DNA of 64,000 nucleotides, taken from NCBI GenBank assembly GCA_018433885.1, contig JAHDQK010000006.1, forward strand, positions 1 to 64,000. The letters are read 5' to 3'. The stretch comes from Candidatus Cloacimonadota bacterium. GTDB taxonomy: Bacteria; Cloacimonadota; Cloacimonadia; Cloacimonadales; Cloacimonadaceae. Below are positions 3,994 to 52,262 of this stretch, in pieces. The first letter of the stretch is position 1; the number at the start of each line of letters is the position of its first letter. The notes below the pieces were generated by a model that was given only the letters and a program-made list of their open reading frames with translations, made no database searches and was not told the DNA's origin. Position numbers and translations under genes: made by a program.

Positions 3994-3995
3994 TA

Positions 3996-7250: not shown

Positions 7251-7260
7251 GGTATCTCCT

Positions 7261-26645: not shown

Positions 26646-28628
26646 CTAGCGAAGGGTTTCCAATAGCCGCTTGGCGTGACGCTCCCAGCTAAAGGCTTCT
26701 AAGCGCTTGTATCCCTTGGCTCTCAGATCATCCCCCAGCGCAGGGTTGCTTAATACATTTTGCATCGCAGCCGCTATCTCCTTTGCTTTTTTGGGATTGA
26801 AGGTTAGCACCGCGTTTTTTCCAATCTCAGGCAGAGAAGACGTGTTTGAGCATACTACCGGCACTCCAGAGGCAAAAGCTTCCAGCATAGGGATGCCAAA
26901 GCCTTCATATAAGGATGGAAACACATACAAGGAGGCGTGTTTATACAACCCAGCAAGATCCGCGTCCTTCACGAACCCGGTGAAGCGTACTCTAGCTTTA
27001 TCCTTCATCCCCGCGTGATATTCCATTACATGCTCTCCCCCGTTCCACAGGCTACCTCCCAGTACAAGCGCATATTCGTCCTTCAGATATTGGGGGAGTT
27101 TTTCATAAGCTTTTAAAAGATTCAAATGGTTCTTACCCGGATGCTCGATACGCGCTATATACAGGATGTACTTTCCTTTAAAACCATATTTGGTCTCAAG
27201 CTCCGCTATGTCTGAGGGATTCTCCAGTTTATGGGGGTCGTAACCATTGTAGTTCACATGGATCCGGTTTCCGGGTATGCCGAAATAGCGGCGTAGATCG
27301 TATTTGGTGCTTTCACTGATGGCATAGATGATGGGGGCCTTATGTAGGTAATGGGGCACAATGTGCTTGATGTAGAACATCCTTAGAAAATTGTACTTAC
27401 CCGGAATATGAAACTGGGAGAGATCATGAAAGGTAAGTATGGTGCGGTCGTTGTACTTACAGAACAAGCGCCGGTTCGCAGCAGGCAGAAAGATGAGATC
27501 GTAACGCTTCAGGGAGTGCCAGAACGGAAGCACATACAGGTGCCAAGCCATCGATAACAGCGGTTTGGCAAGTACTTGCGGGATCTCGATGAAGTGTAAG
27601 CGTGGGCTTTGGATGGGAAAAATCTCCCTATCCTCAGGATGAATCAGCAGATGCACCTCGTGTTCTTTGATAAACTCTCTTACTACCGACACAATGTAAT
27701 CCGAAATCCCGGATTTTCCGCCGTCATAAGCAACGCAACTTACGAGGATCTTGCGTACGGGATTTGACATGGCATAATAAGCGCGGGTTCTACCCAACCA
27801 AGTAAAATAACGTTGTGCAAAGCGATAGATCTTGGCTTGGGGAATCCAATCCAGTCTCTTTGTCTTCACCAGATAGATCAAATCCCGGCAAAACTCTGCT
27901 ACCGCAGAAATAAAGACGGCTTTGAAGAAGGAAAGATCATCGGAGTTTTCATCGTAGATTTCCCGGTAGATCTTCGCTTCGGCAGTACCTTCACCTTTAT
28001 AGCGTTTGGCGATTTGGCGCAGATTGTAGTTGTGAGAGTGTTCTACTATGGCTTCAGGAATGTATTGCACCCGGTATCCCATTTTTTTGATGCGCCAGGA
28101 CCAATCGATATCCTCAGAATACTGTAGTTTTTCGTCGAAGGGATATTGACGGATGATGTCCGCCCGCACGGCGGAACTAGCCAAAGAGAAGAAGTGCCTC
28201 CATCTGGCGGAAATCTTGCCATCGCCAAAAGCTCGTTGATAGTCTTTCTTTACGATCGGGATCGCATCCTGACGCGCTACTTGGTTTGCAAAAGTGGCTA
28301 CAATCTCCGGATCTTGCTCCAAGGGTGCCACAAGATTCTGCAACCAATCCTCATTTTGAGGGATGGCATCCGCATTATTAAACACGATGATCTCGCCTTT
28401 GGCAAAGGTGATGGCTTCGTTCAGAACTTTGCCAGGTACATAGCTTTTTGCCGGAATCTGATACACCTTCGTAGCCTCAGATTGCAGTAATAGCTCCCAA
28501 CTTCCGTCCGTGGATCCGGAATCCACACAGATCAGTTCAAAATCCTGCCGGCTTTGATTCTTTAGCGCATCCAGAGTTTGCCGGATCCAGGGCATCTCAT
28601 CTTTGGAACGCATGATGATGCTGATCAT
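26646..28628 (-). CDS. Fused GT2-GT4 glycosyltransferase
   Basis: A 660-residue protein with two catalytic parts. Residues 1 to about 240 are a GT-A family 2 domain (CVDSGSTDGS, FNNADAIPQNEDW, SEDIDWSWR). Residues about 290-660 are a GT-B family 4 domain with YIARIEHPGKN and the sugar-nucleotide motif YEGFGIPMLEAFASG. It probably builds a surface polysaccharide at the cytoplasmic face. The start overlaps the stop of the PP2C gene by four bases; the fusion may couple two successive transfers. Confidence 0.88.
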   Translation of the reverse strand: MISIIMRSKDEMPWIRQTLDALKNQSRQDFELICVDSGSTDGSWELLLQSEATKVYQIPAKSYVPGKVLNEAITFAKGEIIVFNNADAIPQNEDWLQNLVAPLEQDPEIVATFANQVARQDAIPIVKKDYQRAFGDGKISARWRHFFSLASSAVRADIIRQYPFDEKLQYSEDIDWSWRIKKMGYRVQYIPEAIVEHSHNYNLRQIAKRYKGEGTAEAKIYREIYDENSDDLSFFKAVFISAVAEFCRDLIYLVKTKRLDWIPQAKIYRFAQRYFTWLGRTRAYYAMSNPVRKILVSCVAYDGGKSGISDYIVSVVREFIKEHEVHLLIHPEDREIFPIQSPRLHFIEIPQVLAKPLLSMAWHLYVLPFWHSLKRYDLIFLPAANRRLFCKYNDRTILTFHDLSQFHIPGKYNFLRMFYIKHIVPHYLHKAPIIYAISESTKYDLRRYFGIPGNRIHVNYNGYDPHKLENPSDIAELETKYGFKGKYILYIARIEHPGKNHLNLLKAYEKLPQYLKDEYALVLGGSLWNGGEHVMEYHAGMKDKARVRFTGFVKDADLAGLYKHASLYVFPSLYEGFGIPMLEAFASGVPVVCSNTSSLPEIGKNAVLTFNPKKAKEIAAAMQNVLSNPALGDDLRAKGYKRLEAFSWERHAKRLLETLR

Positions 28629-30235
28629 AGGTCTATCTCCACTTTGGTTTCGTTCAAATGCCCAAAACGTACCCGCTCGAAACGGTTGCTCATAGACATG
28701 ATGATCTTTACCCCTCTACCGCTGGAATCCATCCCGTCCAACTCAAAATCGTAGGGTTCCTCTATACTGTAGCTCAGGTTCTCTGGTACCCATTCGATGC
28801 CCTTATCCCAAAAGCGAATCGAAAGTAAATCAGGCTTCACCCTGAATTCCAGAACGATCTCGGCATCTTCTTGGTAGTTATAACCATAAGTAATAATGTT
28901 GTTCAGAAACTCGTCCACAATCAATTCCACTTTTGCAGCCAGATGAGCGTCTTTGGTCCATTCCAATACCAGGCGTTCGCAATCCTGCGCTGTCTTGCCT
29001 ACTTCCTTTAGAGCGGAACGGAGTACGAAATGGTGATGCCTGGTGATCCCTTCCGGCATGATGATCTCACCACCGGCTTGCAGAGCTTGGAAACTGAACA
29101 ATGTGAAATCGTCCAGCGAGGTTTCAAACTGGTTTTTACTAAGATAATCGATAATCTTGAACGGAATTGTGATGCAAGTATCCCGGTCTGATATTCTGGA
29201 TAGTAGTTCCTTGATTCCTTCTATACCAAACTGCAGGTTGTTTGTGTTTGTGCATTCATATATTCCGTCCGTGAAGACCAGAAAGATATCCGTTTTACAA
29301 AGCGGGAGCCGCTCAACATCATCTTCACGATACATCGTGTTGGGCATCCATCCCAAAGGTAAAGAGCCTTTTTGGTCCAACACCTGCACATTACCGGTAA
29401 GGGAATCGATCTTGATCAACGGTGGATGCCCGGCGTTCAAAAAGCGGATCTCCTGCTCCTCGATATCCACAACCCCCATCAATAACGTTAGGTAGTTGTT
29501 ATGCACAAAGAGGTTGTTGTACAAACTTTCATTCAGCTTAGTAAAGAGCTCCGCCATGGATTTTGTGTCCTGATACGCCTCTATCATCAGCATGATGGTG
29601 GATTTTATCGCACTCATCAGCAACGCTGCCTGCACTCCATGACCGGAGACATCTCCAATATACACTACATACTTCGAATCCGATAACTTGATGCGGTCAA
29701 ACAAATCCCCTCCCACTGCCTCGCAAGGTTCGTAGTAGGAAGAAAACAGGATCTCGCGATCCAGATACACCCATTTGGGAAGCATGGCTTGCTGGATGTT
29801 GGCGGCAGTGTTGAGGTCTTTACGCAGTGCATCGATCAGTTGCAGATTTCTGCGTTCAGCACGTTTTAACGTGATGGTATTATTAACTCGTGCCAATAGT
29901 TCCAAGCGGGAAACGGGCTTCTTGATGTAATCCGCAGAACCGGCTTCAAAGCCCTGATTCACAGATTCATCATCCTGACTGGCAGTTACTAATATCACAG
30001 GAAGATCCGGCTGGGTTTTGTGCATCAGTTTGCAGGTGTCGTAGCCATCGAGGCCGCTACCCATATTCACATCAAGCAGAACCAGTTCATAGGAGTTTTC
30101 CTGAACCATCTTGAGTGCTTCTTCCCCACTGTGACAATAGTCCGAGATATAATTATCCCGTTTCAGAATGTTTTTGATAATGCTGATCACCAGATCGTCA
30201 TCATCCACAATCAATACTTTTGCTTCGAGTTCCAT
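28625..30235 (-). CDS. Receiver-PP2C phosphatase-HATPase protein (RsbU/SpoIIE type)
   Basis: A 536-residue three-domain signalling protein. The receiver has Asp11-14, phospho-acceptor Asp55 and Lys106. The PP2C-type phosphatase (about 150-390) shows YIGDVSGHGVQAALL and FTDGIYE. The C-terminal HATPase_c (about 400-536) has VDEFLNNIITYG and SSGRGVKI. It would both dephosphorylate an anti-anti-sigma factor and carry a kinase-like module. The start at 30235 has GAGGCGG. Putative partners are the STAS and HATPase proteins at 3-4 kb and the STAS domain fused to the permease upstream. Confidence 0.9.
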   Translation of the reverse strand: MELEAKVLIVDDDDLVISIIKNILKRDNYISDYCHSGEEALKMVQENSYELVLLDVNMGSGLDGYDTCKLMHKTQPDLPVILVTASQDDESVNQGFEAGSADYIKKPVSRLELLARVNNTITLKRAERRNLQLIDALRKDLNTAANIQQAMLPKWVYLDREILFSSYYEPCEAVGGDLFDRIKLSDSKYVVYIGDVSGHGVQAALLMSAIKSTIMLMIEAYQDTKSMAELFTKLNESLYNNLFVHNNYLTLLMGVVDIEEQEIRFLNAGHPPLIKIDSLTGNVQVLDQKGSLPLGWMPNTMYREDDVERLPLCKTDIFLVFTDGIYECTNTNNLQFGIEGIKELLSRISDRDTCITIPFKIIDYLSKNQFETSLDDFTLFSFQALQAGGEIIMPEGITRHHHFVLRSALKEVGKTAQDCERLVLEWTKDAHLAAKVELIVDEFLNNIITYGYNYQEDAEIVLEFRVKPDLLSIRFWDKGIEWVPENLSYSIEEPYDFELDGMDSSGRGVKIIMSMSNRFERVRFGHLNETKVEIDL

Positions 30236-30245
30236 AGCCGCCTCT

Positions 30246-30734
30246 TTATAGGTTCTGTTTGATAGGTTTACGTGTGTAGCGGCAAAAGCTAAGTTCATGT
30301 CCGCTAATACTTAATAACTTGTCCACAATAGAGATATCCCAGTTTTGGGGATTAAAATCTGGAAACACGGTATCCCCCGCTATTTCAGCATCGATTCTGG
30401 TAATATACATAGTGTCCACGTTTGGTAATGCTTGTTCAAACACGGACGCACCACCAATAACGAAAGCATCGGGATATCGTTGCACTGCTTCTTCCAAGCT
30501 GGAATACGCTTCCACATTTTCCGGTTGGAAACCGGGATCACGGGTAAGCACAACGTTCGTTCTACCTGGCAATGCCTTGCCAATTGAAGTAAAGGTCTTT
30601 CTGCCCATAATGACCACATTTCCCCAAGTAAGCCGCTTAAAATACGCCAAGTCTTCTGGAAGATGCCAAGGCATTTGGTTATCATTTCCGATTACTCGGT
30701 TGCGCGCCATCGCAACTATGATCTTGAGGCTCAA
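30246..30734 (-). CDS. folA: Dihydrofolate reductase
   Basis: Reduces dihydrofolate to tetrahydrofolate with NADPH. The 162 residues include the IIVAMARNRVIG strand, NQMPWHLPEDL with catalytic Asp28, MGRKTF and the VIGGASVF turn. The gene starts with TTG at 30734, forming a TTGA overlap with the stop of the ABC ATPase gene; AGGA lies five bases upstream. An ATG start inside would cut the first strand, so TTG is preferred. Its place inside a lipid-transport operon is unrelated by pathway. Confidence 0.95.
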   Translation of the reverse strand: MSLKIIVAMARNRVIGNDNQMPWHLPEDLAYFKRLTWGNVVIMGRKTFTSIGKALPGRTNVVLTRDPGFQPENVEAYSSLEEAVQRYPDAFVIGGASVFEQALPNVDTMYITRIDAEIAGDTVFPDFNPQNWDISIVDKLLSISGHELSFCRYTRKPIKQNL

Positions 30735-41810: not shown

Positions 41811-42158
41811 ATGACTCTAAGAGAATTAGTAGCTTTGCTGGAAGGCGAAGTTCTTTTCCCCGAAGCAGATCTGGATAGAGAAGTGCCCTGCGCCTTCGCG
41901 TCGGATATGATCTCAGATATTCTAATGTGCACCAAAGAGCCCACCCTTCTTCTTACAGGGCTTACCAACAACCAGGTTATCCGTCTCAGCGACATGATTG
42001 ATCTCACCGGGATCGTATTTGTAAGAGGTAAACGGCCTTTACAAGATGTCATAGAGATGGCTGCCGAACGTGGCTTGCCGATCATCACCACCAAATTCAC
42101 CCTTTATCGCTGCAGCGGAATCCTCTTCAACGCGGGTCTGCGCAGTTGCAAGATATGA
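41811..42158 (+). CDS. DRTGG-domain protein, copy 1
   Basis: A 115-residue single DRTGG-type domain (also found in some phosphotransacetylases and in CBS-linked regulators): AFASDMISDILMC, IDLTGIVFVRGKRP and LPIITTKFTLYRCSGILF. Such genes repeatedly occur beside sensory [FeFe] hydrogenases; their role is unknown, possibly ligand binding. A second copy lies at 43965-44306. First gene of the cluster. Confidence 0.85.
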   Translation: MTLRELVALLEGEVLFPEADLDREVPCAFASDMISDILMCTKEPTLLLTGLTNNQVIRLSDMIDLTGIVFVRGKRPLQDVIEMAAERGLPIITTKFTLYRCSGILFNAGLRSCKI

Positions 42159-42167
42159 TCTAAGATT

Positions 42168-42659
42168 ATGGCTGAATATTGGTATATAGCCGAAGGCTTT
42201 GAAAATCGCGTACAGGAATATCTGGCAGATAACGGAGATTCTGAAGTGGACATGATGTTCACCGTACCGGAAAAGGATTTTAATACAGCGGGCAAAGGCT
42301 CTTCCGAAGTCAAAAATCTCCTGAAACGCTTGGGAGTAGATTCCGAAGTTCTGCGCCGCATCGCCGTGGCATCATACGAGGCGGAGATCAACGTGGCTGC
42401 CCACTCTCATGGTGGAGTAATGCACAGCGCAGTTTACGACGACCATATTCACATCCGCTTTGAAGATGAAGGCCCCGGGATTGCGGATATCGAACAAGCC
42501 ATGATACCCGGCTTTTCCACTGCGGACGAATTGGCGCGGGAATTGGGTTTTGGTGCCGGTTTAGGTTTGCCGAACATCAAGAAAAACAGCGATGCCATGC
42601 ATATAGTATCCGAGAAAGGCTCCTCCACCCTTGTAGAATTCATCATCTTCTTCAGTTAG
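42168..42659 (+). CDS. HATPase (anti-sigma/kinase-like), hydrogenase-associated, copy 1
   Basis: A 163-residue protein: about 25 N-terminal residues, then an HATPase_c domain with the N-box ASYEAEINVAAHSHGG, FEDEGPGIAD and the lid GFGAGLGLPNIKKNSD. It lacks a DHp domain and resembles RsbW-like serine kinases. It lies nine bases after the DRTGG gene and four bases before the hydrogenase gene, so it probably acts on the signal output of that hydrogenase. Confidence 0.85.
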   Translation: MAEYWYIAEGFENRVQEYLADNGDSEVDMMFTVPEKDFNTAGKGSSEVKNLLKRLGVDSEVLRRIAVASYEAEINVAAHSHGGVMHSAVYDDHIHIRFEDEGPGIADIEQAMIPGFSTADELARELGFGAGLGLPNIKKNSDAMHIVSEKGSSTLVEFIIFFS

Positions 42660-42663
42660 AGAA

Positions 42664-43944
42664 ATGAACAGAAAAGATAGTAAATATTTCCACGCCATTC
42701 AGATTCTGGAAGATAACTGCACCGGATGTACCGCTTGTGTTCGGGTCTGCCCCACCGAAGCCATCAGAGTGCGAGACCGCAAGGCTACCATCGATCCCAA
42801 TCGCTGCGTGGATTGCGGTAACTGTGTTACGGTATGTGAATTCCATGCTATCATCCCCTCCAGCGACCCTCTGGATATCATTCACAATTTCAAATATAAA
42901 GTGGCGGTGATCTCATCCAGCTTCTTCGGACAGTTTTCGGAAGACATCAGTTATGAAAACGCCAAACAAGCCGTGTTGGAACTCGGTTTCGACGAGGTCG
43001 CGGAAGAAGCGATGGTTACAGATTTCATGATCAGCGTAATCCGCGAATACATCCGCCAAAACCGTGATAAACGCCCCATTTTGAGCAGTAACTGCCCGGC
43101 AGTGGTGAGGTTGATCCAAGTAAAATACCCATCCCTGTTGCCCAATCTGTTTCACCAAGAAGCGCCGATGAGCATTCTTACCCGTTTCCTCCGCGACCGG
43201 ATTTCCAAAGAAAACCAGCTCAAAGAAGAGGAAATCGGGATCTTCCTGATCGTACCATGCGTAGCCCATGTGACAGCCGTGCATCAACCCGAAGGCGCAT
43301 ATAAACATCTTCAGGATGGCGCGTTTTCCACCGGAATGATCTATGGAAAAGTACGTGAGATCATCAAACATGTGCAGAACAACCCCAAAGATATCGATAC
43401 ATATCCCCATGGGCTTACTTGGGCGCTCTCTGGAGTGCAGGCAGAATTGGTGGATACCGATGACATTCGGGCATTATCTGTAAACGGTACCGAGAATGTA
43501 ATGGACATCCTCTCCCGCGTGGAAGACCATTATCTGGATCAATACGACTACATCGTGCTGAGAAGCTGCACAAACGGTTGCGTGGGGGGATGCCTGAATG
43601 TGGAAAATCCCTTTGTAGCAATGAGCAGAATTAAGAAAATGAGCAAGGATGGAGATTCCAAAGAGATCCATGTAGAAGAGCTCGAACGCCTCCATGCTGC
43701 AGGGGAATTCTCCGTAACGCCATTGGCTCCGCGTCCGATCATGGAATTGGATAAGGATATCAAGAAAGCTATTCAAAAAATGAAGAAAATCAATGAATTC
43801 CTCACCATGCTCCCGGGGTTGAATTGTAGCGCGTGTGGTAGCCCCACCTGCTATGCCTTGGCAGAAGACATTGTTTTGGGCAAAGCTTCAATAGACGACT
43901 GTGTGGTGCTCAAACGGCACAAACCCGAAGATGACGAAGATTAA
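42664..43944 (+). CDS. Sensory-type [FeFe] hydrogenase (HydS-like)
   Basis: A 426-residue protein: two N-terminal [4Fe-4S] ferredoxin motifs (Cys19-29 and Cys48-58), an [FeFe]-hydrogenase H-cluster domain (about 75-320), and a C-terminal Fe-S domain (LNCSACGSPTC). The H-cluster cysteines are kept: Cys144 (SSNCPAV), Cys199 (VPCVAH), Cys302 and Cys306 (SCTNGCVGGC). The residue before Cys144, normally the proton-relay cysteine, is Asn143, and the usual lysine after PC is replaced by histidine. This matches group C/D putative sensory hydrogenases with little or altered turnover. Neighbouring HATPase and DRTGG genes support a sensing role. Confidence 0.85.
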   Translation: MNRKDSKYFHAIQILEDNCTGCTACVRVCPTEAIRVRDRKATIDPNRCVDCGNCVTVCEFHAIIPSSDPLDIIHNFKYKVAVISSSFFGQFSEDISYENAKQAVLELGFDEVAEEAMVTDFMISVIREYIRQNRDKRPILSSNCPAVVRLIQVKYPSLLPNLFHQEAPMSILTRFLRDRISKENQLKEEEIGIFLIVPCVAHVTAVHQPEGAYKHLQDGAFSTGMIYGKVREIIKHVQNNPKDIDTYPHGLTWALSGVQAELVDTDDIRALSVNGTENVMDILSRVEDHYLDQYDYIVLRSCTNGCVGGCLNVENPFVAMSRIKKMSKDGDSKEIHVEELERLHAAGEFSVTPLAPRPIMELDKDIKKAIQKMKKINEFLTMLPGLNCSACGSPTCYALAEDIVLGKASIDDCVVLKRHKPEDDED

Positions 43945-43964
43945 TAAATAACAAGGATATAGAA

Positions 43965-44306
43965 ATGAGTAAACTAAGCGAGTACATTGCCCAGATCGAA
44001 GGGAAAAACCATACCCCCGCTATCGATCCGGAAAGCATCGATATCAACGGAGCCTATGTGAGCGATATGCTAAGCGACGTGATGGGTTCCGCCAAACCAG
44101 GCCAAGCGTGGATCACGATCATGAAACATCTGAATGTGATCGCAGTAGCTTCCATGACCGGTATTCCGGCGATCATCTTTGCCAAAGGCAACACTCCGGA
44201 CGAAGCCGTATGCGACAAAGCCTTGGAAGAAGGCATATGTCTGATCAGCAGTAATCTGGATACCTTCAGATTATCCGGAATCCTGTATCGGGTGTTGCAT
44301 CCTTGA
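43965..44306 (+). CDS. DRTGG-domain protein, copy 2
   Basis: A 113-residue DRTGG-type domain: INGAYVSDMLSDVMGS, MTGIPAIIFAKGNTPD, LISSNLDTFRLSGILYR. It shares layout with copy 1 but only limited identity. ACAAGGATATAG precedes the ATG. It lies 20 bases after the sensory hydrogenase and 11 before the PHP gene. Role unknown; probably a partner in the same sensing unit. Confidence 0.82.
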   Translation: MSKLSEYIAQIEGKNHTPAIDPESIDINGAYVSDMLSDVMGSAKPGQAWITIMKHLNVIAVASMTGIPAIIFAKGNTPDEAVCDKALEEGICLISSNLDTFRLSGILYRVLHP

Positions 44307-44317
44307 AGATTTAAGCA

Positions 44318-45067
44318 ATGCGGCTTTTTAGCGCCGATTTGCACATACATAGCGTGTTGTCTCCCTGTGGAGGCCTGGAGATGAGCCCTTCTGCCCTGGT
44401 AAACAGGCTTCAAGAACTTGGCATAGAGTGGTTTGCCATTACAGATCACAACTCCATGGCAAATTGCCCAGCGTATCAGGCAGTCGCTTTAAAAGCAGGT
44501 CTGGCATTTAGCTGGGGAGTGGAAATCCAAACCATGGAAGAAATCCATCTTTTGGCATATTTCGACGATCCCGCGCAGGCTCAAGCCTTTGATCAGGAGC
44601 TTTATAACTCGCTTCTACCTTTGGCGAACGATCCGGAATTCTTTGGAGACCAAGTAATCATTGACGAAAATGAGAACATTTTGAGAGTGGAATCCAGAGC
44701 CTTGATAAATTCCTCTACTTGGGATATTGCTACCGCCGTGGATCAGGTCAAAGCCTTTGGCGGCCTTGCCATACCCGCTCATGTGGACGCGGAAGTGAAT
44801 AGCATTATCTCCCAATTGGGGTTTTTGCCGGCGTATCCGGATTTTACGATCCTAGGTATCACTGCCGGACTCAGGCTAGCAGAGTATCAGTCAATGCACC
44901 CCGAAATGGCGGGAAAGACCTTCCTGCGGGCAAGCGATGCGCATTATCTGAACGATCTCAGAAAAGATGTGTGCTGCCTGTGCGTCAAAGAGCCCAAGAT
45001 CAGCGAGATAGAACTTGCTGCTCTCAAGCTGGATGGTCGCTACATAGATACAATACATGAAAATTGA
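44318..45067 (+). CDS. PHP-domain phosphoesterase
   Basis: A 249-residue PHP protein with metal-site motifs DLHIHSVLSP (7-16), FAITDHNSM (about 39-47), IPAHVDA and ASDAHY. The family includes phosphatases and nucleases of small molecules or RNA; the substrate is unknown. The ribosome site is weak, suggesting coupling to the preceding gene. PHP genes are recurrent neighbours of such hydrogenase clusters, but no reaction in hydrogen metabolism is established. Confidence 0.87.
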   Translation: MRLFSADLHIHSVLSPCGGLEMSPSALVNRLQELGIEWFAITDHNSMANCPAYQAVALKAGLAFSWGVEIQTMEEIHLLAYFDDPAQAQAFDQELYNSLLPLANDPEFFGDQVIIDENENILRVESRALINSSTWDIATAVDQVKAFGGLAIPAHVDAEVNSIISQLGFLPAYPDFTILGITAGLRLAEYQSMHPEMAGKTFLRASDAHYLNDLRKDVCCLCVKEPKISEIELAALKLDGRYIDTIHEN

Positions 45068-45086
45068 ATATAGACAAGGAGGAGTT

Positions 45087-45569
45087 ATGGCTGCCATAGC
45101 TCAAGACAAGAACAGGCTATATGATCGCCTGGCAGAAGCAATCGAAGAGAAAAAGGATCTGCGGAACCCGCTGATCGAGATTCTCAGGATTGCACAAGAG
45201 ATTTTTGGATACCTGCCAATCGAAGTGCAGGAATTTGTAGCCGAGAAGATGAACATTCCCGCTAGCAAGATCTACGGTGTGGTAACGTTTTACAACTTCT
45301 TCTCAATGACCCCGCGCGGAAAATATACGCTTAACGTATGCACCGGAACCGCTTGCTTCGTAAAAGGCGCACCCCGTCTGATTCAGATGCTTTCCGACGA
45401 ACTACAAGTGGAGATGGGCGGAACCACCAAGGACGGTTTGTTCACAATGAGTGCCGTGCGCTGTGTAGGTGCCTGCTCCCTGGCTCCCGTTTTCGTGATC
45501 GGAGAGGACACATTCGGCAGAATCGACAGCAAGGATAAGATCAAAGCCATACTTTCCCGTTACGAGTAA
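45087..45569 (+). CDS. hydC: HydC/NuoE-like [2Fe-2S] subunit, module 1
   Basis: A 160-residue NuoE-like protein with the four [2Fe-2S] ligands: CTGTAC (Cys-x4-Cys) and CVGAC (Cys-x3-Cys), after an N-terminal helical bundle (LIEILRIAQEIFGYLP). It would relay electrons between HydB and HydA. AAGGAGG sets the start at 45087; the frame is open ten codons further into the PHP gene without support. A second NuoE-like gene occurs at 48390. Confidence 0.92.
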   Translation: MAAIAQDKNRLYDRLAEAIEEKKDLRNPLIEILRIAQEIFGYLPIEVQEFVAEKMNIPASKIYGVVTFYNFFSMTPRGKYTLNVCTGTACFVKGAPRLIQMLSDELQVEMGGTTKDGLFTMSAVRCVGACSLAPVFVIGEDTFGRIDSKDKIKAILSRYE

Positions 45570-45573
45570 GCCG

Positions 45574-46143
45574 ATGCAAGACATCTCATTGCACCTGTTG
45601 GATATCATTGAGAATTCCGTTCGTGCGGATGCCAAATGTGTCAAGGTGCGCGTGATCAATAATGTCACCAAAAATCGCTTGCGGATCATCGTCGAGGACG
45701 ATGGTGCAGGAATGGATGCGCACACCTTGCAAAAGGCCCAGGATCCTTTCTACACCTCCAAAGAAGAGAGAGTGAAGAAAGTAGGCTTGGGGATACCGCT
45801 GTTCAAACAAAATGCGGAACTCGTGGGCGGATCGTTCAAGATGGCCAGTGAACCCGGTTTTGGAACCGTACTCACAGTAGATTTCCCTCTGGATCATATC
45901 GACAGAATGCCCTTGGGCAACCTGAAAGATACTCTGTTGGGATCCATCATTGGCCATCCAGAAGTGGATTTCTTTATCCACCTTCTATATCGCGACAAAG
46001 CCAAAGAGCTCTGCTTTCATTTCGATACCAAAGCTATCCGGGAAGAACTGGGAGATATCCCGCTCACATATCCGGATGTAATCGAATATATAGACCAATC
46101 ATTATTTGAAGGAATACAAAATACAAACATGGAGGATGTCTGA
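45574..46143 (+). CDS. HATPase protein, hydrogenase-associated, copy 2
   Basis: A 189-residue protein: HATPase_c domain (about 1-110) with LLDIIENSVRADAK, VEDDGAGMD, PFYTSKEERVKKVGLGIPLFKQ and GTVLTVDFP, then an unassigned 80-residue tail. No phospho-acceptor domain is present. This kind of kinase-like protein is a frequent neighbour of HydB/HydC genes. The stop overlaps the next start by one base (TGATG), so translation is coupled. Confidence 0.87.
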   Translation: MQDISLHLLDIIENSVRADAKCVKVRVINNVTKNRLRIIVEDDGAGMDAHTLQKAQDPFYTSKEERVKKVGLGIPLFKQNAELVGGSFKMASEPGFGTVLTVDFPLDHIDRMPLGNLKDTLLGSIIGHPEVDFFIHLLYRDKAKELCFHFDTKAIREELGDIPLTYPDVIEYIDQSLFEGIQNTNMEDV

Positions 46144-46508
46144 TGAAAACACTGGCAGACCTTAAGAAAATCCGTGAAAAAGCCCAAGAAGATATGAAGC
46201 TTCGTGGCGGAAACGTGCGCATCAAGATCGTGGTGGGGATGGGAACATCCGGCATCGCGATGGGAGCCCGTGAAGTTATGAAGACCTTCTTGGAAGAGAT
46301 TGCAGCAAGAAACCTTACCGACGTTCTGGTTACCCAGACCGGCGAAAAGGGCCTTTCCTCAATGGAACCTGTGGTGGACCTCATCGAAGATGGCAAAACC
46401 AAGGTTACTTATGGAAACATGAATCCGGACAAGGTAAAAAAGGTAGTAGTCGAGCACATCGTAAATGGCAGAGTCGTCTCCGATTATGTTGTCGCGACAG
46501 GCAACTAA
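46143..46508 (+). CDS. Thioredoxin-like ferredoxin homologue without cysteines (HndB-like)
   Basis: A 121-residue protein with the thioredoxin-like [2Fe-2S] ferredoxin fold of HndB-type subunits: IKIVVGMGTSGIAMGAREVM and VTQTGEKGLSSMEPVVDL. In most relatives these two loops carry the four cluster cysteines (GTCGIA and TGCxGLC); here there is no cysteine at all. It therefore cannot bind the cluster and is likely structural or regulatory in the HydABC complex. A strong ribosome context is given by coupling to the previous gene. It is followed 15 bases later by HydB. Confidence 0.85.
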   Translation: MKTLADLKKIREKAQEDMKLRGGNVRIKIVVGMGTSGIAMGAREVMKTFLEEIAARNLTDVLVTQTGEKGLSSMEPVVDLIEDGKTKVTYGNMNPDKVKKVVVEHIVNGRVVSDYVVATGN

Positions 46509-46523
46509 GGCGGGAGGAATTAA

Positions 46524-48380
46524 ATGTCTCTGAAACGTATTGACCTTTTGATCTGTTGCGGATCCGGTTGTGTATCAGCCGGTGCGCTGAAGATCAAAGA
46601 ACGCTTTCATGAAGTGCTGAAAGAGCACAACCTCACTACAGAAGTGAACATCATCGAAACCGGTTGTATGGGTCCCTGCGACTACGGTCCTGTAATGGTG
46701 ATCTATCCCGAAGGCATTTTCTACAAGAAAGTGAGCGTGGATGATGTCGCTGAGATCGTTAGTGAGCACTTTGTGAAGGGCCGCCCGGTAAACCGCCTGA
46801 TGCTTCAGGAAGAAGAGAAAACCTTCCAAGCCCAAAAGGACGTTCCTTTCTACCAAAAACAGGTGAAAGTTGCGCTGGAGAATTGCGGTTACATCAATCC
46901 CGAAAGCTTGGATGAATATATCGCCACCGGCGGTTATGAGGCTTTGGGCACCATCCTGACCGAGATGAAACCTCAGGACGTGATCAACGTAATCAAAGAA
47001 TCCGGCTTGCGCGGACGCGGTGGCGGAGGATTCCCCACCCACATCAAATGGCAAATGGTGCACGATAATAAAGCCGATCAGAAATACATCATCTGCAACG
47101 GTGATGAAGGAGACCCCGGAGCCTTTATGGATCGCTCCCTTTTGGAAGGCGACCCACATCGCATCCTCGAGGGCATGATGATCGCCGCTTATGCTATGGG
47201 CGCAAGTAACGGCTTCTTCTATATCCGCGCGGAATATCCGCTTGCCATCAAACGCATTAAAATGGCAATCGAACAAGCAAAAGAGCTTGGATTGATGGGT
47301 AACAATGTCTTCGGTTCCGGCTTCAATTTCGATGCTGAAGTTCGCACCGGCGCGGGTGCCTTCGTGTGTGGCGAAGAAATGGCTCTGATCCACTCTATAG
47401 AAGGTATGCGCGGCAACCCCACTCCCAAGCCTCCGTATCCCGCAGTTCAAGGTCTGTGGGGAAAGCCCACCGTGGTAAACAATGTGGAAACCTTTGGTAA
47501 TATCGCCACCATTATCCGCAAAGGAGCTGCGTGGTTTGCCTCTATGGGCACCGAGAAATCCAAAGGCACCAAAGTGTTTGCCCTTACTGGTGATGTTCGA
47601 AACACCGGTCTGGTGGAAGTACCCATGGGTATCACCCTGCGCGAACTCATCTTCGACGTGGGCGGCGGCATGATCGGTGACCACAAGTTCAAGGCCGTAC
47701 AGTTGGGCGGACCCTCTGGCGGTTGCCTCACTGTGGATCATCTGGATACTTCCGTGGATTATGAAAGCCTGAAAGAACGCGGAGCCATGATGGGTTCCGG
47801 CGGCGTGATCGTGATGAACGACGAGAAGTGCATGGTAAACGTTGCCAAGTTCTTCATGGAATTCTGCGTGGAAGAATCCTGTGGAAAATGTTCACCCTGT
47901 CGCATCGGACTAAAACAGATGTTGGAAATTCTGGAACGCATCACTGATGGCAAAGGCCGTGAAGGTGATATCGAAGAACTTCAACGTCTAGGCGAATCCA
48001 TCAACAAACTCTCGCTTTGCGGATTGGGACAGACAGCTCCGAACCCTGTGCTTTCCACCATCCGCTACTTCCGCGAAGAATATGAATCCCACATTCGGGA
48101 TCACAGCTGTGCGAACAAGGTCTGCCTGGATCTTATGCACTTCAATATCGATAAAGAAAGATGCATCGGCTGCTCTCTGTGTGCCCGCAAATGCCCTACC
48201 ACTTGCATTAGCGGCTCACGCGAGGAAAAATATACGATCCATCAGATCGATTGCGTAAAATGCGGAAACTGCTTCGATGTCTGCCCTGTGAAAGCCATCG
48301 ACAAGATTCCCGGGATGCATCCTGAGATTGCAGCTAATAGAGCCCAAATCGCAAAAGCTGCTCAGCATTACGACGATTAA
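46524..48380 (+). CDS. hydB: HydB/NuoF-like flavin subunit, module 1, with N- and C-terminal ferredoxin domains
   Basis: A 618-residue subunit of an electron-bifurcating hydrogenase. Residues 1-95 are a thioredoxin-like [2Fe-2S] domain with intact ligands (ICCGSGC, ETGCMGPC). The NuoF core follows with GLRGRGGGGFP (FMN), NGDEGDPGAFMDR, the SLBB region and the [4Fe-4S] motif ESCGKCSPC. The C-terminus has two more [4Fe-4S] sites (CIGCSLCARKC and CVKCGNCFDVC). It oxidises or reduces NAD(P)H through FMN. GGGAGGAATT sets the start. Confidence 0.94.
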   Translation: MSLKRIDLLICCGSGCVSAGALKIKERFHEVLKEHNLTTEVNIIETGCMGPCDYGPVMVIYPEGIFYKKVSVDDVAEIVSEHFVKGRPVNRLMLQEEEKTFQAQKDVPFYQKQVKVALENCGYINPESLDEYIATGGYEALGTILTEMKPQDVINVIKESGLRGRGGGGFPTHIKWQMVHDNKADQKYIICNGDEGDPGAFMDRSLLEGDPHRILEGMMIAAYAMGASNGFFYIRAEYPLAIKRIKMAIEQAKELGLMGNNVFGSGFNFDAEVRTGAGAFVCGEEMALIHSIEGMRGNPTPKPPYPAVQGLWGKPTVVNNVETFGNIATIIRKGAAWFASMGTEKSKGTKVFALTGDVRNTGLVEVPMGITLRELIFDVGGGMIGDHKFKAVQLGGPSGGCLTVDHLDTSVDYESLKERGAMMGSGGVIVMNDEKCMVNVAKFFMEFCVEESCGKCSPCRIGLKQMLEILERITDGKGREGDIEELQRLGESINKLSLCGLGQTAPNPVLSTIRYFREEYESHIRDHSCANKVCLDLMHFNIDKERCIGCSLCARKCPTTCISGSREEKYTIHQIDCVKCGNCFDVCPVKAIDKIPGMHPEIAANRAQIAKAAQHYDD

Positions 48381-48389
48381 GGGGAGAAT

Positions 48390-48845
48390 ATGTACAAAGA
48401 AATCTGCGCCAAATACGCCCCCACCAAGGACAACTTGATCTACATCCTGCACGAGATTCAGGATAGCCACCCGCAACACTACATATCCAAGGACGCGGTC
48501 ACGGCGATATCCGAATACCTCAAGGTGCCGGAAAACCATATATATGGAGTGCTTACATTTTACTCCATGTATTCCACGAGTCCTCGCGGCAAAAACATCA
48601 TCCGCCTGTGCGAATCCCCACCCTGTTATATCAAGGGTAGCGAAAACATCCTGCGCAAACTGAAGACAATCCTTGGCGTTGGAGTAGGCGAGACCACCAA
48701 AGACGGCAAGTTCACACTTGAATTGTGCGCGTGTCTTGGTGTGTGTGGAAACGCTCCTGTGATGATGATCAACGAAGATGTCTATGGCGATCTCTCGGAA
48801 GAGAAAGTGGAAGACATCATCGAAAAAGTCAGAGGGAGGAGCTGA
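48390..48845 (+). CDS. HydC/NuoE-like [2Fe-2S] subunit, module 2
   Basis: A 151-residue NuoE-like protein with [2Fe-2S] ligands CESPPC (Cys-x4-Cys) and CLGVC, plus an extra cysteine in LCACLGVC. It is shorter and clearly different from the copy at 45087. GGGGAGAAT precedes the ATG. Its stop overlaps the next NuoF start by one base. A second NuoE-NuoF pair in one hydrogenase operon suggests a second NAD(P)H-reactive module. Confidence 0.92.
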   Translation: MYKEICAKYAPTKDNLIYILHEIQDSHPQHYISKDAVTAISEYLKVPENHIYGVLTFYSMYSTSPRGKNIIRLCESPPCYIKGSENILRKLKTILGVGVGETTKDGKFTLELCACLGVCGNAPVMMINEDVYGDLSEEKVEDIIEKVRGRS

Positions 48846-50407
48846 TGAAATACTATCGCTCTCACGTACTTGTCGGCATCAACGAAACATCAGTAGCTGC
48901 CGGTGTGAACAACTTCATCAAAGCTTTGCGGGCAGAACTCAGCAAAGCCGGATTGAGTGACGAGATCAACATCTTGGAAACAGGTCCTTTGGGATTCTTT
49001 GGTAAAGGCATATGCATCACTGTGTATCCGGAAAACATCAACTATGAAAACCTGAAAGAAGAGCATATACCAAACCTGGTTCAGGAACACTTCCTAAAAG
49101 GCCGCCCGGTGGTGGAACTGATGCTGGAATCCGCGGGAAGATTCAGCCCCAAACTGAACTACAACCAGCGCATAGTTTTGCGCAATTCCGGCATTATCGA
49201 TCCTGAAAGCATCGACGATTACATCGGTGCCGGTGGTTATGAGGCTTGGGAAAAAGCCCTTACCCAAATGGAACCCAAAGCTATAGTTGAAGAAGTGAAG
49301 AATTCCGGATTACGCGGTCGTGGTGGCGCAGGCTTCCCTGCCGGCGTGAAATGGAGCTTTACAGCCCCTCTTGATGCCAAACAAAAATATGTGGTGGTAA
49401 ATGCCGACGAAGGCGAGCCGGGAACCTTCAAAGACCGGTTGATCATGGAAGGCGACCCTCATCAATTGCTAGAAGGCGTGATGATCTGCGCTCGTGCCAT
49501 TGGCGCCACCAAAGCATACATCTATATTCGCGGTGAATACAAACTCTGCATTGAACGTCTGCAAAAAGCTATCGATGATTGCCGTAACTACGGTATCATC
49601 GGTACAAACATCTTCGAAACAGGTTTTGATCTGGATATCGAGATCAAGATCGGTGCCGGAGCTTATGTATGCGGAGAAGAAACTGCACTTATCGAATCTC
49701 TGGAAGGAAACCGTGGTCACCCCCGCTGGAAACCCCCGTTCCCGGGAGTCAAAGGCCTCTGGCAAGCTCCCACTGTGGTTAACAACGTGGAGACTCTGGC
49801 AAACGTTCCCTTCATCATCGCCAAAGGTGCTGATGAATACAAAAAATACGGCACTCCGGAATGCGCCGGAACCAAGGTTTATACCATCCTTGGCGACGTA
49901 GCCTACCCCGGCTTGTGCGAAGTAGATATGGGAACCACGCTTAGAACCATCATCAACGATTATGCCGGTGGCATGAAAAAAGGCTTCAAATTCAAAGCCG
50001 CTCTCGTTGGTGGCGCAGCCGGCATGATTCTTTCCGAAAAACTGCTGGATGTGAAGATGGATCTTGCCAGCCTGAACCAATACTCTGCGGTTCTGGGAAG
50101 CGGCGCGATCCTGGTGATGAACGAGCATCAGAGCATCGTGGATATGCTGTGGAGCATCCTACGCTTCTTCCGCCATGAATCCTGTGGAAAGTGCGCTCCC
50201 TGCAAAAACGGAACTCAACAGCTATATCGTTTGATCACCAAGATCAAAAAAGGCGAAGGCAGTATGGACGATGTAGAACTTATGCTAACCATCGCTGAGA
50301 CCATGCAACAGACTTCATTCTGCGCCCTGGGCCAATCCCCAATCATGGCCATTCGCAGCGCAATCGAAAACTTCCGTGATGAATTCATCGCGATAACTCA
50401 AAAATAA
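48845..50407 (+). CDS. HydB/NuoF-like flavin subunit, module 2
   Basis: A 520-residue NuoF-like subunit. The N-terminal thioredoxin-like domain (1-95) keeps the fold (VLVGINETSVAAGV, LETGPLGFFGKG) but lacks the cluster cysteines. The core has GLRGRGGAGFPAG, the complex-I-like VVNADEGEPGTFKDR, and ESCGKCAPCKNGT for a [4Fe-4S] cluster. Unlike module 1 it has no C-terminal ferredoxin domain. It starts at 48845, overlapping the NuoE stop (TGATG); the open frame 40 codons upstream is a reading of the previous gene in another frame. Confidence 0.93.
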   Translation: MKYYRSHVLVGINETSVAAGVNNFIKALRAELSKAGLSDEINILETGPLGFFGKGICITVYPENINYENLKEEHIPNLVQEHFLKGRPVVELMLESAGRFSPKLNYNQRIVLRNSGIIDPESIDDYIGAGGYEAWEKALTQMEPKAIVEEVKNSGLRGRGGAGFPAGVKWSFTAPLDAKQKYVVVNADEGEPGTFKDRLIMEGDPHQLLEGVMICARAIGATKAYIYIRGEYKLCIERLQKAIDDCRNYGIIGTNIFETGFDLDIEIKIGAGAYVCGEETALIESLEGNRGHPRWKPPFPGVKGLWQAPTVVNNVETLANVPFIIAKGADEYKKYGTPECAGTKVYTILGDVAYPGLCEVDMGTTLRTIINDYAGGMKKGFKFKAALVGGAAGMILSEKLLDVKMDLASLNQYSAVLGSGAILVMNEHQSIVDMLWSILRFFRHESCGKCAPCKNGTQQLYRLITKIKKGEGSMDDVELMLTIAETMQQTSFCALGQSPIMAIRSAIENFRDEFIAITQK

Positions 50408-50425
50408 GACAAGAGGAATAGAATT

Positions 50426-52210
50426 ATGGCTAAAAACGTCAACGTTTGGATTGATGGTCATCACCTGGAAGTTCCGGATACCATGACCATCATCGAAGCT
50501 GCGGACAAACACGGGATCTATATTCCCAGACTCTGCTACCATCCCGATCTTCCCCCAACCGCAAACTGCGGCGTATGTGTCGTAGAATTCGAAGGCAATC
50601 CCGTGCCCAAACGTGCCTGCTGCACTCCTGTAGCGGAAGGCATGAAGATTCATACAAACAGCAAAAAACTGCGTTCCTACCGCAAGACCTTGATCGAGAT
50701 GATCCTTTCCAACCACGAAGTAGTATGCCCCACCTGTACCGCAAACAACAAATGCGAGCTGCAGACCTTGGCAAACAACCTCGGTGTGGATCCGGATTCA
50801 CTGCCCAATATCTTGGTAAAGAAAGAAGCGGATTTCAGCAGCCCCTCCATCATTCGCGATCCCAACAAGTGCATCGCTTGCGGACGCTGCATCACAGTAT
50901 GTAACGAAGTGCAGACCGTTTACGCACTTACCAATAGCGATCGTGGTATCGGCAGCGAAGTTACCACCGCCTTTGGTATGGGAATGGCACAAAGCCCCTG
51001 TGTAAATTGCGGTCAATGCACAGTATATTGCCCCACTGGTGCGCTTCGTGAAAGAAGCGAGATCGACGAAGTATGGGAAGCTATACTGGACCCCGATAAA
51101 CACGTAATCGTCCAGGAAGCTCCCGCTATCCGCGTTTCACTTGGTGAAGAATTTGGCTTGCCCTTGGGCAGTATCACGGCAAAGAAGATGTATGCCGCTC
51201 TGCGTAAGATCGGATTTGATGCCATCATGGATACAAACTTCACCGCCGACCTCACCATTATGGAAGAAGGCACAGAATGCGTAGCCAGGCTCAAAGCCGG
51301 TGAAAAACGTCCGTTGATCACCTCTTGCTCTCCCGGATGGATCAAGTTCATGGAAACCTACTATCCCGATCTTGCAGATTGCGTTTCCACCGCAAAATCA
51401 CCCATGAGCATGTTTGGCGTGCTTTCCAAAACCTACTATGCCCAGGAACACGGCATTGATCCCGCCAAGATCGTCTCGGTTGCGGTAATGCCTTGCACAG
51501 CCAAGAAGTTCGAAGCCCGCCGTCCGGAACTTCGCGACAGCGGCTATCAGGATACCGACTATGTGCTTACCACTCGTGAATTCCTGCGGATGATCAAGGA
51601 AGCAGGCATCGACTTCGCCCACATCAAAGAAGAAGATGCAGACGAAGGAATGAGCTTCTACACTGGAGCGGGAACGATCTTTGGCGCAACTGGTGGTGTG
51701 ATGGAAGCGGCTATCCGCTCCGCATACACTCTGGTTACCGGTCAGGAACTGGAAGACATTGATATCGTGGGAGTACGTGGTCTGGAAGGCGTGAAAGAAG
51801 CCACCGTAAATGTACCCGGCTTCGGCGACCTCAGAGTAGCGGTAGCCCATGGCTTGGGCAATGCCCGCTATGTAATGGATAAAGTTCGTGAAGGCCTCAA
51901 AGCTACTGGCGAATCCCCTTGGCATTTTATAGAAATCATGGCTTGCCCCGGCGGTTGCGTAGGTGGTGGTGGACAGCCTTATGGCAACGACATCGCATCC
52001 CGCGCACGGCGCGGTCTTGCCCTCTACGAGGAAGATAAATCCCTACCTGTACGTAAATCTCACCACAATCCAGAAGTTACGAGAATTTACGAACGCTTCC
52101 TTGGTGCCCCGAACTCCCCGCTGGCTCACAAGCTGCTTCATACCAACTACTTCAAACGCTCGATCAGTAACGGGCAGGTTGTAGAAGAAGCTACTCACAA
52201 ACATCACTAA
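50426..52210 (+). CDS. hydA: Catalytic [FeFe] hydrogenase subunit HydA
   Basis: A 594-residue group A type catalytic subunit. Fe-S sites in order: N-terminal [2Fe-2S] (Cys37, 48, 51, 65), His97-Cys101-Cys104-Cys110 [4Fe-4S], then two ferredoxin clusters (Cys149-159 and Cys192-202). The H-cluster domain has TSCSPGW (Cys301, Ser302), MPCTAKK (Cys357) and MACPGGCVGG (Cys507, Cys511). The first motif has Ser where the textbook form has a second Cys. It makes or consumes H2 with electrons from ferredoxin and NADH. AGAGGAAT precedes the ATG. A terminator follows. Confidence 0.95.
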   Translation: MAKNVNVWIDGHHLEVPDTMTIIEAADKHGIYIPRLCYHPDLPPTANCGVCVVEFEGNPVPKRACCTPVAEGMKIHTNSKKLRSYRKTLIEMILSNHEVVCPTCTANNKCELQTLANNLGVDPDSLPNILVKKEADFSSPSIIRDPNKCIACGRCITVCNEVQTVYALTNSDRGIGSEVTTAFGMGMAQSPCVNCGQCTVYCPTGALRERSEIDEVWEAILDPDKHVIVQEAPAIRVSLGEEFGLPLGSITAKKMYAALRKIGFDAIMDTNFTADLTIMEEGTECVARLKAGEKRPLITSCSPGWIKFMETYYPDLADCVSTAKSPMSMFGVLSKTYYAQEHGIDPAKIVSVAVMPCTAKKFEARRPELRDSGYQDTDYVLTTREFLRMIKEAGIDFAHIKEEDADEGMSFYTGAGTIFGATGGVMEAAIRSAYTLVTGQELEDIDIVGVRGLEGVKEATVNVPGFGDLRVAVAHGLGNARYVMDKVREGLKATGESPWHFIEIMACPGGCVGGGGQPYGNDIASRARRGLALYEEDKSLPVRKSHHNPEVTRIYERFLGAPNSPLAHKLLHTNYFKRSISNGQVVEEATHKHH

Positions 52211-52230
52211 ACAACCCTTGATACATATAA

Positions 52231-52262
52231 ACGACCGGTAACTATGCCGGTCGTTTTCTTTT
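52231..52262 (+). terminator. Rho-independent terminator of the hydrogenase cluster
   Basis: ACGACCGG and CCGGTCGT arms with an 8-base loop, followed by TTTTCTTTT, 20 bases after the hydA stop. Confidence 0.9.

Follow-up and report, generated by a model that had tools for sequence, protein, structure and literature searches.

Putatively sensory [FeFe]-hydrogenases and the locus in the window

Sensory [FeFe]-hydrogenases, including those of the monomeric M2e type, usually lie upstream of trimeric bifurcating hydrogenases, and a histidine/serine kinase gene often lies between the two, as described in the parts of a 2012 survey that we consulted (PMC3561251); the other papers cited below are likewise represented by parts of their text. 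The M2e enzyme of Thermoanaerobacter mathranii, reported in 2020, showed low rates and its properties were interpreted as sensory, with the signal path of this PAS-less class left as a question (PMC8163306); these hydrogenases continue to be termed putatively sensory (PMC8924675). Here we describe a locus of this kind from a Candidatus Cloacimonadota bacterium, in a window that comprises the first 64,000 nucleotides of contig JAHDQK010000006.1 (host genome: 2.42 Mb, 91 contigs). Five genes, encoding two DRTGG-domain proteins (DRTGG1 and DRTGG2), a SpoIIAB-like ATPase (HATPase1), a putatively sensory hydrogenase (HydS) and a PHP-domain protein, open an operon that ends with a catalytic hydrogenase subunit. 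We propose, with confidence that is evenly balanced, that these five genes form a sensor-kinase-phosphatase cassette that controls a bifurcating hydrogenase, most likely post-translationally.

The operon is a 12-gene plus-strand run at 41811-52210, with intergenic spacing of -11 to +20 nt: DRTGG1, HATPase1, HydS, DRTGG2, PHP, HydC1, HATPase2, HydD, HydB1, HydC2, HydB2, HydA (Table 1). The original prediction had named seven genes at 41811-46143 and read them as an unbroken run leading to HydB and HydA. All seven are present on a single strand in the order it gave, each correctly identified, and they do belong to one tight operon; the earlier account had omitted HydD, HydC2 and HydB2, all of which lie 5' of HydA.

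M2e/group D operons resemble this locus (T. mathranii, PMC8163306; Caldicellulosiruptor and Thermoanaerobacter, PMC3561251): in the portions of these papers at hand, a PAS-less HydS with a C-terminal Cx2Cx4Cx16C motif is accompanied by a nearby bifurcating HydABC and a histidine/serine-kinase-like gene, and the juxtaposition of an M2e hydrogenase, HydABC and a kinase gene is therefore already published. The M2e operons as described carry the kinase-like gene (in T. mathranii also an AraC regulator); those portions mention neither a five-gene set with two DRTGG genes and PHP nor fusions or non-hydrogenase partners.

Pfam matches in HydS comprise Fer4 in two stretches, Fe_hyd_lg_C (93.4 bits) and a C-terminal FeS domain (PF04060), so that two N-terminal [4Fe-4S] motifs precede the H-domain, as in M2e/group D. 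Also as in that class, the C-terminal Cx2Cx4Cx16C motif is present in 136 of 137 HydS homologues, no PAS family occurs among the 12 Pfam matches to E 0.01, and the L1 motif SSNCP replaces the group A proton-transfer cysteine. This position, assigned by motif, is non-cysteine in the 114 homologues, out of 137, that have a listed motif; two fall into other classes, and the pattern was not found in 21. At the Met353 position, the window HydS has a valine before the L2 Pro-Cys (VPC), unlike the Ser/Thr of M2e, a feature described as well conserved in that class but not defining (PMC8163306); the homologues divide into TPC (47), SPC (28), VPC (30) and APC (2), with the pattern not found in 30. HydS thus has most of the tested features of the M2e/group D 'putatively sensory' [FeFe]-hydrogenases, a class assignment that is based on domain and motif features. 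The host genome has five Fe_hyd_lg_C matches.

The group C (M2f) systems, Ruminococcus albus HydS and Thermoanaerobacterium HfsB-HfsC, likewise place a putative [FeFe] H2 sensor beside a catalytic [FeFe]-hydrogenase. In the relevant parts of the reports, regulatory phenotypes are recorded and Ser/Thr phosphorylation machinery is proposed, including a Ser/Thr kinase for R. albus (PMC11837493, PMC5707799). These systems use a PAS domain and the serine-phosphatase-like HfsC, whereas the window has a DRTGG pair, a SpoIIAB-like ATPase and PHP instead; neither a PAS domain nor a PP2C/SpoIIE phosphatase was found among the operon proteins scanned. Elsewhere in the host genome (locus L217; contig C8:55500-64500, within it 2351-8900, minus strand) lie genes for a HydB-like protein, a HydA with a C-terminal 2Fe-2S domain, a 564-aa HydS whose C-terminal PAS match falls below the cut-off (23.3 bits; cut-off 27), and a SpoIIE-type phosphatase. 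From its sequence this cluster looks like a group C/hfs system; one bacterium therefore seems to carry both the PAS/PP2C and the DRTGG/HATPase/PHP kinds, which makes the two directly comparable. The window itself also encodes, at 28625-30298 (minus), a protein with a SpoIIE phosphatase match and with receiver and C-terminal ATPase parts that were read by eye.

A further relative of the operon is the Bfu family, in which a HydB/HydC core is combined with exchangeable third-substrate modules and whose operons contain hisK and hydD, as far as the consulted sections show (PMC9304861). The main text of that paper does not contain the words 'sensor' or 'kinase'; in our loci the core is joined, whatever the type of module, by a distinct sensor cassette. 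In the open-licence literature that was searched we found no description of the five-gene cassette, of its fusions, or of its formate dehydrogenase, [NiFe], Nfn-type and Rnf partners, and the single paper there in which 'DRTGG' and 'hydrogenase' both occur mentions them in unrelated places.

Table 1. Genes and 3' feature of the operon, in window coordinates
Feature	Description	Position	Strand	Family or evidence
DRTGG1	small DRTGG-domain protein, 115 aa	41811..42158	+	Pfam PF07085
HATPase1	SpoIIAB/RsbW-like GHKL kinase-type ATPase, 163 aa	42168..42659	+	HATPase_c_2
HydS	M2e/group D-type putatively sensory [FeFe]-hydrogenase, 426 aa	42664..43944	+	Fer4, Fe_hyd_lg_C, FeS
DRTGG2	second DRTGG-type protein, 113 aa	43965..44306	+	PF07085, sub-cut-off
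PHP	PHP-domain metallo-phosphoesterase, 249 aa	44318..45067	+	PF02811, 41.6 bits
HydC1	NuoE-like [2Fe-2S] subunit	45057..45569	+	PF01257 (2Fe-2S_thioredx), 157.4 bits
HATPase2	histidine-kinase-type ATP-binding domain, 189 aa	45574..46143	+	HATPase_c, 58.5 bits
HydD	relative of thioredoxin-like 2Fe-2S ferredoxins, 121 aa	46143..46508	+	NCBIfam NF041612, sub-cut-off
HydB1	BfuB-type FMN/NADH subunit, C-terminal 4Fe-4S dicluster domain	46524..48380	+	Pfam domains
HydC2	second NuoE-like subunit	48390..48845	+	PF01257, 175.5 bits
HydB2	second NuoF-like subunit	48845..50407	+	Complex1_51K, NADH_4Fe-4S
HydA	catalytic [FeFe]-hydrogenase subunit, group A6	50426..52210	+	NF040763, 810 bits (cut-off 765)
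Terminator-like hairpin	3' of HydA	52229..52256	+	12 pairs, then TCTTTTCTCC

Recurrence of the cassette and exchange of its partners

We counted the cassette, that is, the first five genes DRTGG1, HATPase1, HydS, DRTGG2 and PHP, at domain level. A HydS match at E <= 1e-60 was obtained in Cloacimonadota (66/124 genomes), in Clostridia-type genomes (183/391), and in Bacillota-type (116/299) and Bacteroidota-type (2/296) genomes. The 80 Bacillota loci analysed come from 40 of the 183 HydS-positive Clostridia-type genomes and 40 of the 116 Bacillota-type ones; they were hand-picked for long contigs, the Clostridia-type ones among the matches listed, and fractions lean toward good assemblies. A first contig scan gave 33 Cloacimonadota loci plus two weak others, and may overlap with the Cloacimonadota genomes added later. 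Near relatives were kept in all locus counts, and gene calls in relatives rely on profiles and open frames and, for some neighbours, on reading by eye.

The five domains stand in order in 77 of the 80 Bacillota loci (39/40 Clostridia-type, 38/40 in the phylum-wide Bacillota sample), in both Bacteroidota loci, in 19 of 21 further Cloacimonadota loci and in 29 of the 33 first-scan loci; the expectation that gene order would be conserved across phyla is thus borne out, with the five-gene order recurring in three. At gene level, DRTGG1 is absent as a separate gene from six Bacillota loci (fused in five) and DRTGG2 from two (fused in both). Among the loci that break the order, L106 and L207 have no PHP and L197 has no detected DRTGG1; the others are truncated or rearranged: the contig ends in L054, the locus begins within HydS in L034 and L036, frames are broken in L035, L027 has no further cassette genes after HydS despite 4.7 kb following, and L143 (Cloacimonadota) has DRTGG2, then a DRTGG1-HATPase1 fusion, then HydS, without PHP. 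Across the 391 Clostridia-type genomes, HydS and HATPase1 occur together in 180, HydS alone in three and HATPase1 alone in four (thresholds 1e-60 and 1e-20, respectively; counts uncorrected for kinship). The recurrence of the order and this co-occurrence exceed chance.

Another key observation is that the run consists of two modules: the five-gene sensor cassette, and HATPase2-HydD, which is mostly found with HydC/HydB. HATPase2 was considered as a sixth cassette member and rejected, since it mostly accompanies HydC/HydB; it is missing from 9 of 11 Bacillota cassettes without a seen partner (present in L191 and in the cut-short L206). Counter to a strict split, HATPase2 is also present in L114 and is fused to PHP in three loci.

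HydB and HydA lie on the same strand as the cassette in 54 of the 80 Bacillota loci, including L109, where a HydA occurs together with a formate dehydrogenase copy; a strict L3 motif is present in 52 of the 53 HydA proteins from loci with HydB and HydA only (L133 is the exception). The remainder comprise HydB with formate dehydrogenase (3/80: L201, L211, L216), HydC/HydB followed by Rnf (4/80), Rnf only (2/80), divergent HydC/HydB (4/80; in L212 the operon continues to a HydA), an upstream formate dehydrogenase or HydA gene without HydB (2/80: L114, L121), cassettes with none of the sought partners in the fetched stretch (10/80), and one locus cut short (L206). An RnfD match lies further downstream in seven HydA loci (L180, L187, L188, L189, L190, L196, L197). 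The conserved order and the mostly HydABC-linked loci support the original prediction that signalling genes are wired to the hydrogenase operon; the contrary possibility, a signalling unit mostly separate from HydABC, was rejected, bearing in mind that only those 10 of 80 loci are partnerless.

Among first-scan loci, 23 of 33 contain HydA, nine are cut short and one (L036) stands alone. In the 21 further Cloacimonadota loci, formate dehydrogenase is the last gene in six (L051, L052, L056, L057, L059, L063) and HydA is present in one (L065); HydC/HydB occur without either in four (L062, L066, L067, L143), one cassette stands alone (L049) and nine loci are cut short. The identity of the partner (Mo/Sec) formate dehydrogenases was checked by Pfam or NCBIfam in L051, L052, L056, L057 and L201. 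Those of L201, L211, L059 and L063 have an in-frame TGA followed by His-x-x-Thr-Val-Ala-Gly-Leu, the context that a selenocysteine codon would be expected to have; a formate/nitrite transporter gene is likewise present in L063. Downstream of both Bacteroidota cassettes are HATPase2, HydC, HydD and HydB, then an HdrA-like protein with a NuoG-type N-terminus, an MvhD-like protein and the small and large [NiFe] subunits (families checked). In L143, HydC and HydB follow the cassette, and after them come a NuoG-like protein that contains a molybdopterin-type domain and a pair that we read, from family matches, as NfnA and NfnB. At first look L141, L142 and L143 seemed to contain HydA; these candidates were rejected as HdrA-like and NuoG-like (L142 because it resembles L141). 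The formate dehydrogenase label requires four changes and the Rnf label three on a quick HydS tree, in which L142, L143 and L201 have long branches. Where the cassette is stand-alone, divergent or Rnf-linked, the genome nearly always encodes a group A6 HydA over the cut-off (20 of 21 genomes); that of G238 is found immediately beyond the divergent HydC-HydB genes.

The catalytic part therefore varies while the HydB/HydC core is usually retained, as the commonest constant partner of the cassette. The linkage to hydrogenase that the original prediction proposed stands, but it is not exclusive: a hydrogenase-only run was rejected, given that formate dehydrogenase, Hdr/[NiFe] or Nfn-type genes, or those of Rnf, can be the neighbours instead. 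Because the core is constant across partner exchange, the direct target is more likely to be HydB/HydC than HydA; the cassette probably acts on the electron-splitting core that these enzymes have in common and not on the hydrogenase as such, and HydA is an unlikely target.

The same constancy could also be explained if HydS, the DRTGG proteins, PHP and the HATPases were an assembly or repair set that builds, loads or recycles HydB/HydC and carries no signal. HydB/HydC being the commonest constant partner whatever the catalytic subunit would fit this idea, as would HydD and HATPase2 mostly accompanying HydC/HydB; GHKL ATPases can act as chaperones. It is harder to reconcile with the stand-alone cassettes, and a second H-cluster protein would be a costly means of assembly. 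Furthermore, the characterised M2e enzyme was interpreted as sensor-like in the parts of the report available (PMC8163306). We consider an assembly set improbable.

Several neighbours were noted in passing. By eye, the stand-alone cassettes of L102, L115 and L120 follow an apparent threonyl-tRNA synthetase gene, and those of L110, L123 and L134 precede an apparent pyrK-pyrD pair. L036 (Candidatus Zophobacter), at 1-1670, has the end of HydS, DRTGG2, PHP, then unrelated genes, with no adjoining HydABC. A Rex-type redox repressor gene lies upstream of the fused DRTGG1-HATPase1 gene in L180, L187, L188 and L196 (by eye) and downstream of the cassette in L210 (by eye) and L211 (4201-4818, minus; by family score). 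On the strand opposite to the cassettes of G992:C15, G939:C39, G1016:C30 and G1027:C20, at a distance of 4-12 kb, open frames of 312-375 aa partially match the NuoG-like N-terminal region of HydA (241-254 bits); they are perhaps split formate dehydrogenases.

Fusions, conserved residues and a possible signal path

We also obtained instructive natural fusions, sought by domain searches on single open frames. DRTGG1 and HATPase1 are fused in five loci of the Bacillota count set (L179, L180, L187, L188, L196), in two more genomes (L151, L152) and in L143; DRTGG2 is fused to the C-terminus of HydS in L182 and L193, and PHP to HATPase2 in L192, L200 and L203. The quick HydS tree requires two changes for the first fusion and one for each of the others. 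Since fusion usually points to physical partners, these proteins suggest the pairings HydS-DRTGG2, DRTGG1-HATPase1 and PHP-HATPase2. DRTGG1 and DRTGG2 look paralogous, so we infer that a DRTGG1-DRTGG2 pair would be the simplest bridge between sensor and kinase; in a CBS-pyrophosphatase, subunit contacts have been modelled through DRTGG (PMC10742508, in the part consulted).

HATPase1 matches HATPase_c_2 at 28.2 bits (cut-off 27.4), and its best PDB relatives are the anti-sigma F factor SpoIIAB (E 1.9e-10). Its ATP site is intact: N, G1 and G2 boxes are all recognisable, with a Glu four residues before the N-box Asn, which presumably has a functional role in kinases of this type, and E71, E73, N75, D100, G102, G104, G127-G131 and G133 show no variation across 32 chosen sequences, which come from three phyla. 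The likeness to SpoIIAB makes a Ser/Thr kinase a reasonable guess. In the SpoIIAB/SpoIIAA/SpoIIE and RsbW partner switches, a GHKL Ser kinase acts with small substrate-like proteins and a phosphatase; the cassette differs in having DRTGG for STAS, PHP for PP2C and no sigma factor.

That kinship raises the alternative of transcriptional partner switching, in which HATPase1 would act on unlinked STAS/sigma partners, with the DRTGG proteins as anti-anti-factors and the HydABC promoter as the point of control. In its favour are the closeness of HATPase1 to the anti-sigma F factor, the STAS proteins and SpoIIE-type phosphatases that the host genome encodes outside the operon (three matches each), and the Rex genes that adjoin some cassettes. 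Yet no STAS or sigma partner gene was found beside HATPase1 among the operon proteins scanned (Pfam, NCBIfam), none of the five cassette proteins matches a sigma-factor, STAS or DNA-binding family above the Pfam cut-off, and the fusion partner of HATPase1 is DRTGG1, not STAS. We rate this alternative as unlikely; since the cassette proteins have no DNA-binding family over that cut-off, post-translational control seems the likelier of the two.

DRTGG1 matches PF07085 at 27.4 bits (cut-off 25.2), whereas DRTGG2 falls slightly below (23.7 bits), with Hpr_kinase_N as its second family; the best PDB profile match of DRTGG2 is 3l2b, the CBS/DRTGG part of a pyrophosphatase (E 0.0016). The AlphaFold2 model of DRTGG1 (pLDDT 94.6) matches the DRTGG structures 2ioj and 3l31 (AF1212 and a CBS-pyrophosphatase DRTGG domain). 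D32, S35 and D36 of DRTGG1 are invariant, and T49 nearly so, in 32 chosen sequences, as are D34, S37, T51 and N57 of DRTGG2 in 31; the Asp-Ser and Thr positions, which align between the two proteins, may be phosphorylated or may contact a ligand. A third DRTGG match in the host genome (L003, contig C16) reads as an HPr kinase by eye.

Ligand contacts are central to another alternative, nucleotide allostery without protein phosphorylation: the DRTGG pair would bind an adenine (di)nucleotide, the HATPases would report ATP/ADP, PHP would hydrolyse the signal and HydS would supply the redox input. DRTGG is said, in the part of the report at hand, to be important for ApnA binding in a CBS-pyrophosphatase (PMC7226116), and the DRTGG1 model matches such structures, with the conserved D32, S35, D36, T49, R72 and K74 at or just past predicted strands. 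PHP, too, resembles enzymes that act on nucleic acids and nucleotides. On the other hand, the relevant text of another study places AMP/ADP binding on CBS domains (PMC10742508), which are absent from the cassette; DRTGG2 in the window has Lys-Gly-Asn where DRTGG1 has Arg-Gly-Lys (72-74), and so lacks the full motif; and Pfam/NCBIfam scans detected no nucleotide synthase in the cassette. This alternative, too, seems to us improbable.

As for the proposed phosphatase, H9, H11, D43, H44, E69, H77, H155, D207, H209 and C17 are invariant in 31 chosen PHP sequences, and the protein thus retains its metal-type residues; its model (pLDDT 96.0) is closest to EndoQ, then to other PHP phosphoesterases including RNase AM. 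HATPase2, whose closest solved relatives are histidine kinases, is probably the 'hisK' gene of HydABC operons; in 28 chosen sequences D10, N14, D42, G44, G46, G71 and G73 are invariant, as are D110, R111, P113 and G115 in a tail of about 80 residues beyond the ATP-binding domain.

Returning to control of the bifurcating core by phosphorylation, we hypothesize the following path. HydS, as a slow, PAS-less M2e type, would take up the state of the H2/ferredoxin pool and relay it through its C-terminal [4Fe-4S] region to DRTGG2. DRTGG2 would pair with its paralogue DRTGG1, attached to HATPase1, and so switch the SpoIIAB-like kinase; the PHP metallo-phosphoesterase would take the phosphate off again, and HATPase2 would connect PHP to HydB/HydC, such that the bifurcating core, and not the hydrogen-making subunit, would be where the output is set. 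The broader form of this idea, in which the cassette would control electron bifurcation in general, via a DRTGG1-DRTGG2 heterodimer, with PHP and HATPase2 as an output arm on HydB/HydC, is possible, but we hold it only tentatively and with some doubt.

A number of observations weigh against this proposal. HATPase1 scores far below the SpoIIAB equivalog cut-off (TIGR01925: 44.3 bits; cut-off 135), so kinase activity is not given by family membership; its scores against the RsbW models are 17.2 and 16.6 bits (cut-offs 145 and 155). The nearest solved relatives of PHP, among them EndoQ, RNase AM and the AMP-binding 2yb1, are nucleases or phosphoesterases of other kinds rather than known protein phosphatases. 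In the model, the conserved DRTGG1 residues would suit a ligand pocket equally well as a phospho-site, and the link of DRTGG domains to adenine-nucleotide control also counts against the proposal; moreover, DRTGG was judged uninvolved in tetramer formation of the CBS-pyrophosphatase, according to the section consulted (PMC7226116). There are also incomplete cassettes in the presence of HydABC (L106 and L207 without PHP, L197 without a detected DRTGG1), the 10 partnerless Bacillota cassettes, and four formate dehydrogenase loci without HydD (L051, L052, L056, L057). Finally, pairwise sequence-distance correlations between the genes were positive throughout; they distinguished neither the cassette from HydB nor the two modules from each other.

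The HydABC subunits and the reach of the cassette

The downstream part of the run reads as a HydABC-type (Bfu family) hydrogenase operon, predicted to be electron-bifurcating by family. HydB1 matches Complex1_51K, NADH_4Fe-4S, Fer4 families and an N-terminal 2Fe-2S_thioredx; as in Bfu/group A6 enzymes, a HydC1 and HydB1 core with a C-terminal ferredoxin domain is combined with a group A HydA, whose NF040763 score assigns it to the group A6 HydABC-type hydrogenases. HydB2 lacks the C-terminal ferredoxin domain, with no Fer4 or 2Fe-2S_thioredx match up to E 0.001, and the operon may encode a bifurcating plus a non-bifurcating diaphorase. The HydC2/HydB2 pair (48390-50407) is also present in near relatives with sufficiently long contigs and in L059, L063 and L065. 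HydD scores 38.5 bits against NF041612 (cut-off 150), and its window copy contains zero cysteines; near-relative identity is 86-98% for HydD and 82-92% for HydA. The role of HydD is likely structural, judging from its sequence; it was not found in five HydB-bearing Cloacimonadota loci, namely L064 and the four formate dehydrogenase loci mentioned above.

The hairpin 3' of HydA is one of 15 such sites in our scan (11.9 expected), and the argument for a terminator is accordingly its position, not the count. No plus-strand promoter-like site was found 5' of DRTGG1.

The three fusion types provide a wiring diagram that is directly open to binding tests. If the broader form of our proposal is correct, the H2 level, or ferredoxin poise read through HydS, would set bifurcation in hydrogenases and formate dehydrogenases as well as in systems of the Hdr/[NiFe], Nfn-type and Rnf-linked kinds, and, with the HydB/HydC core as the controlled part, one regulator would be shared by a large enzyme family. 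The HydS-type sensor is common, with a match in more than a third of the Bacillota-type genomes sampled (116 of 299), and the cassette bears on how anaerobes sense H2 and adjust electron bifurcation.

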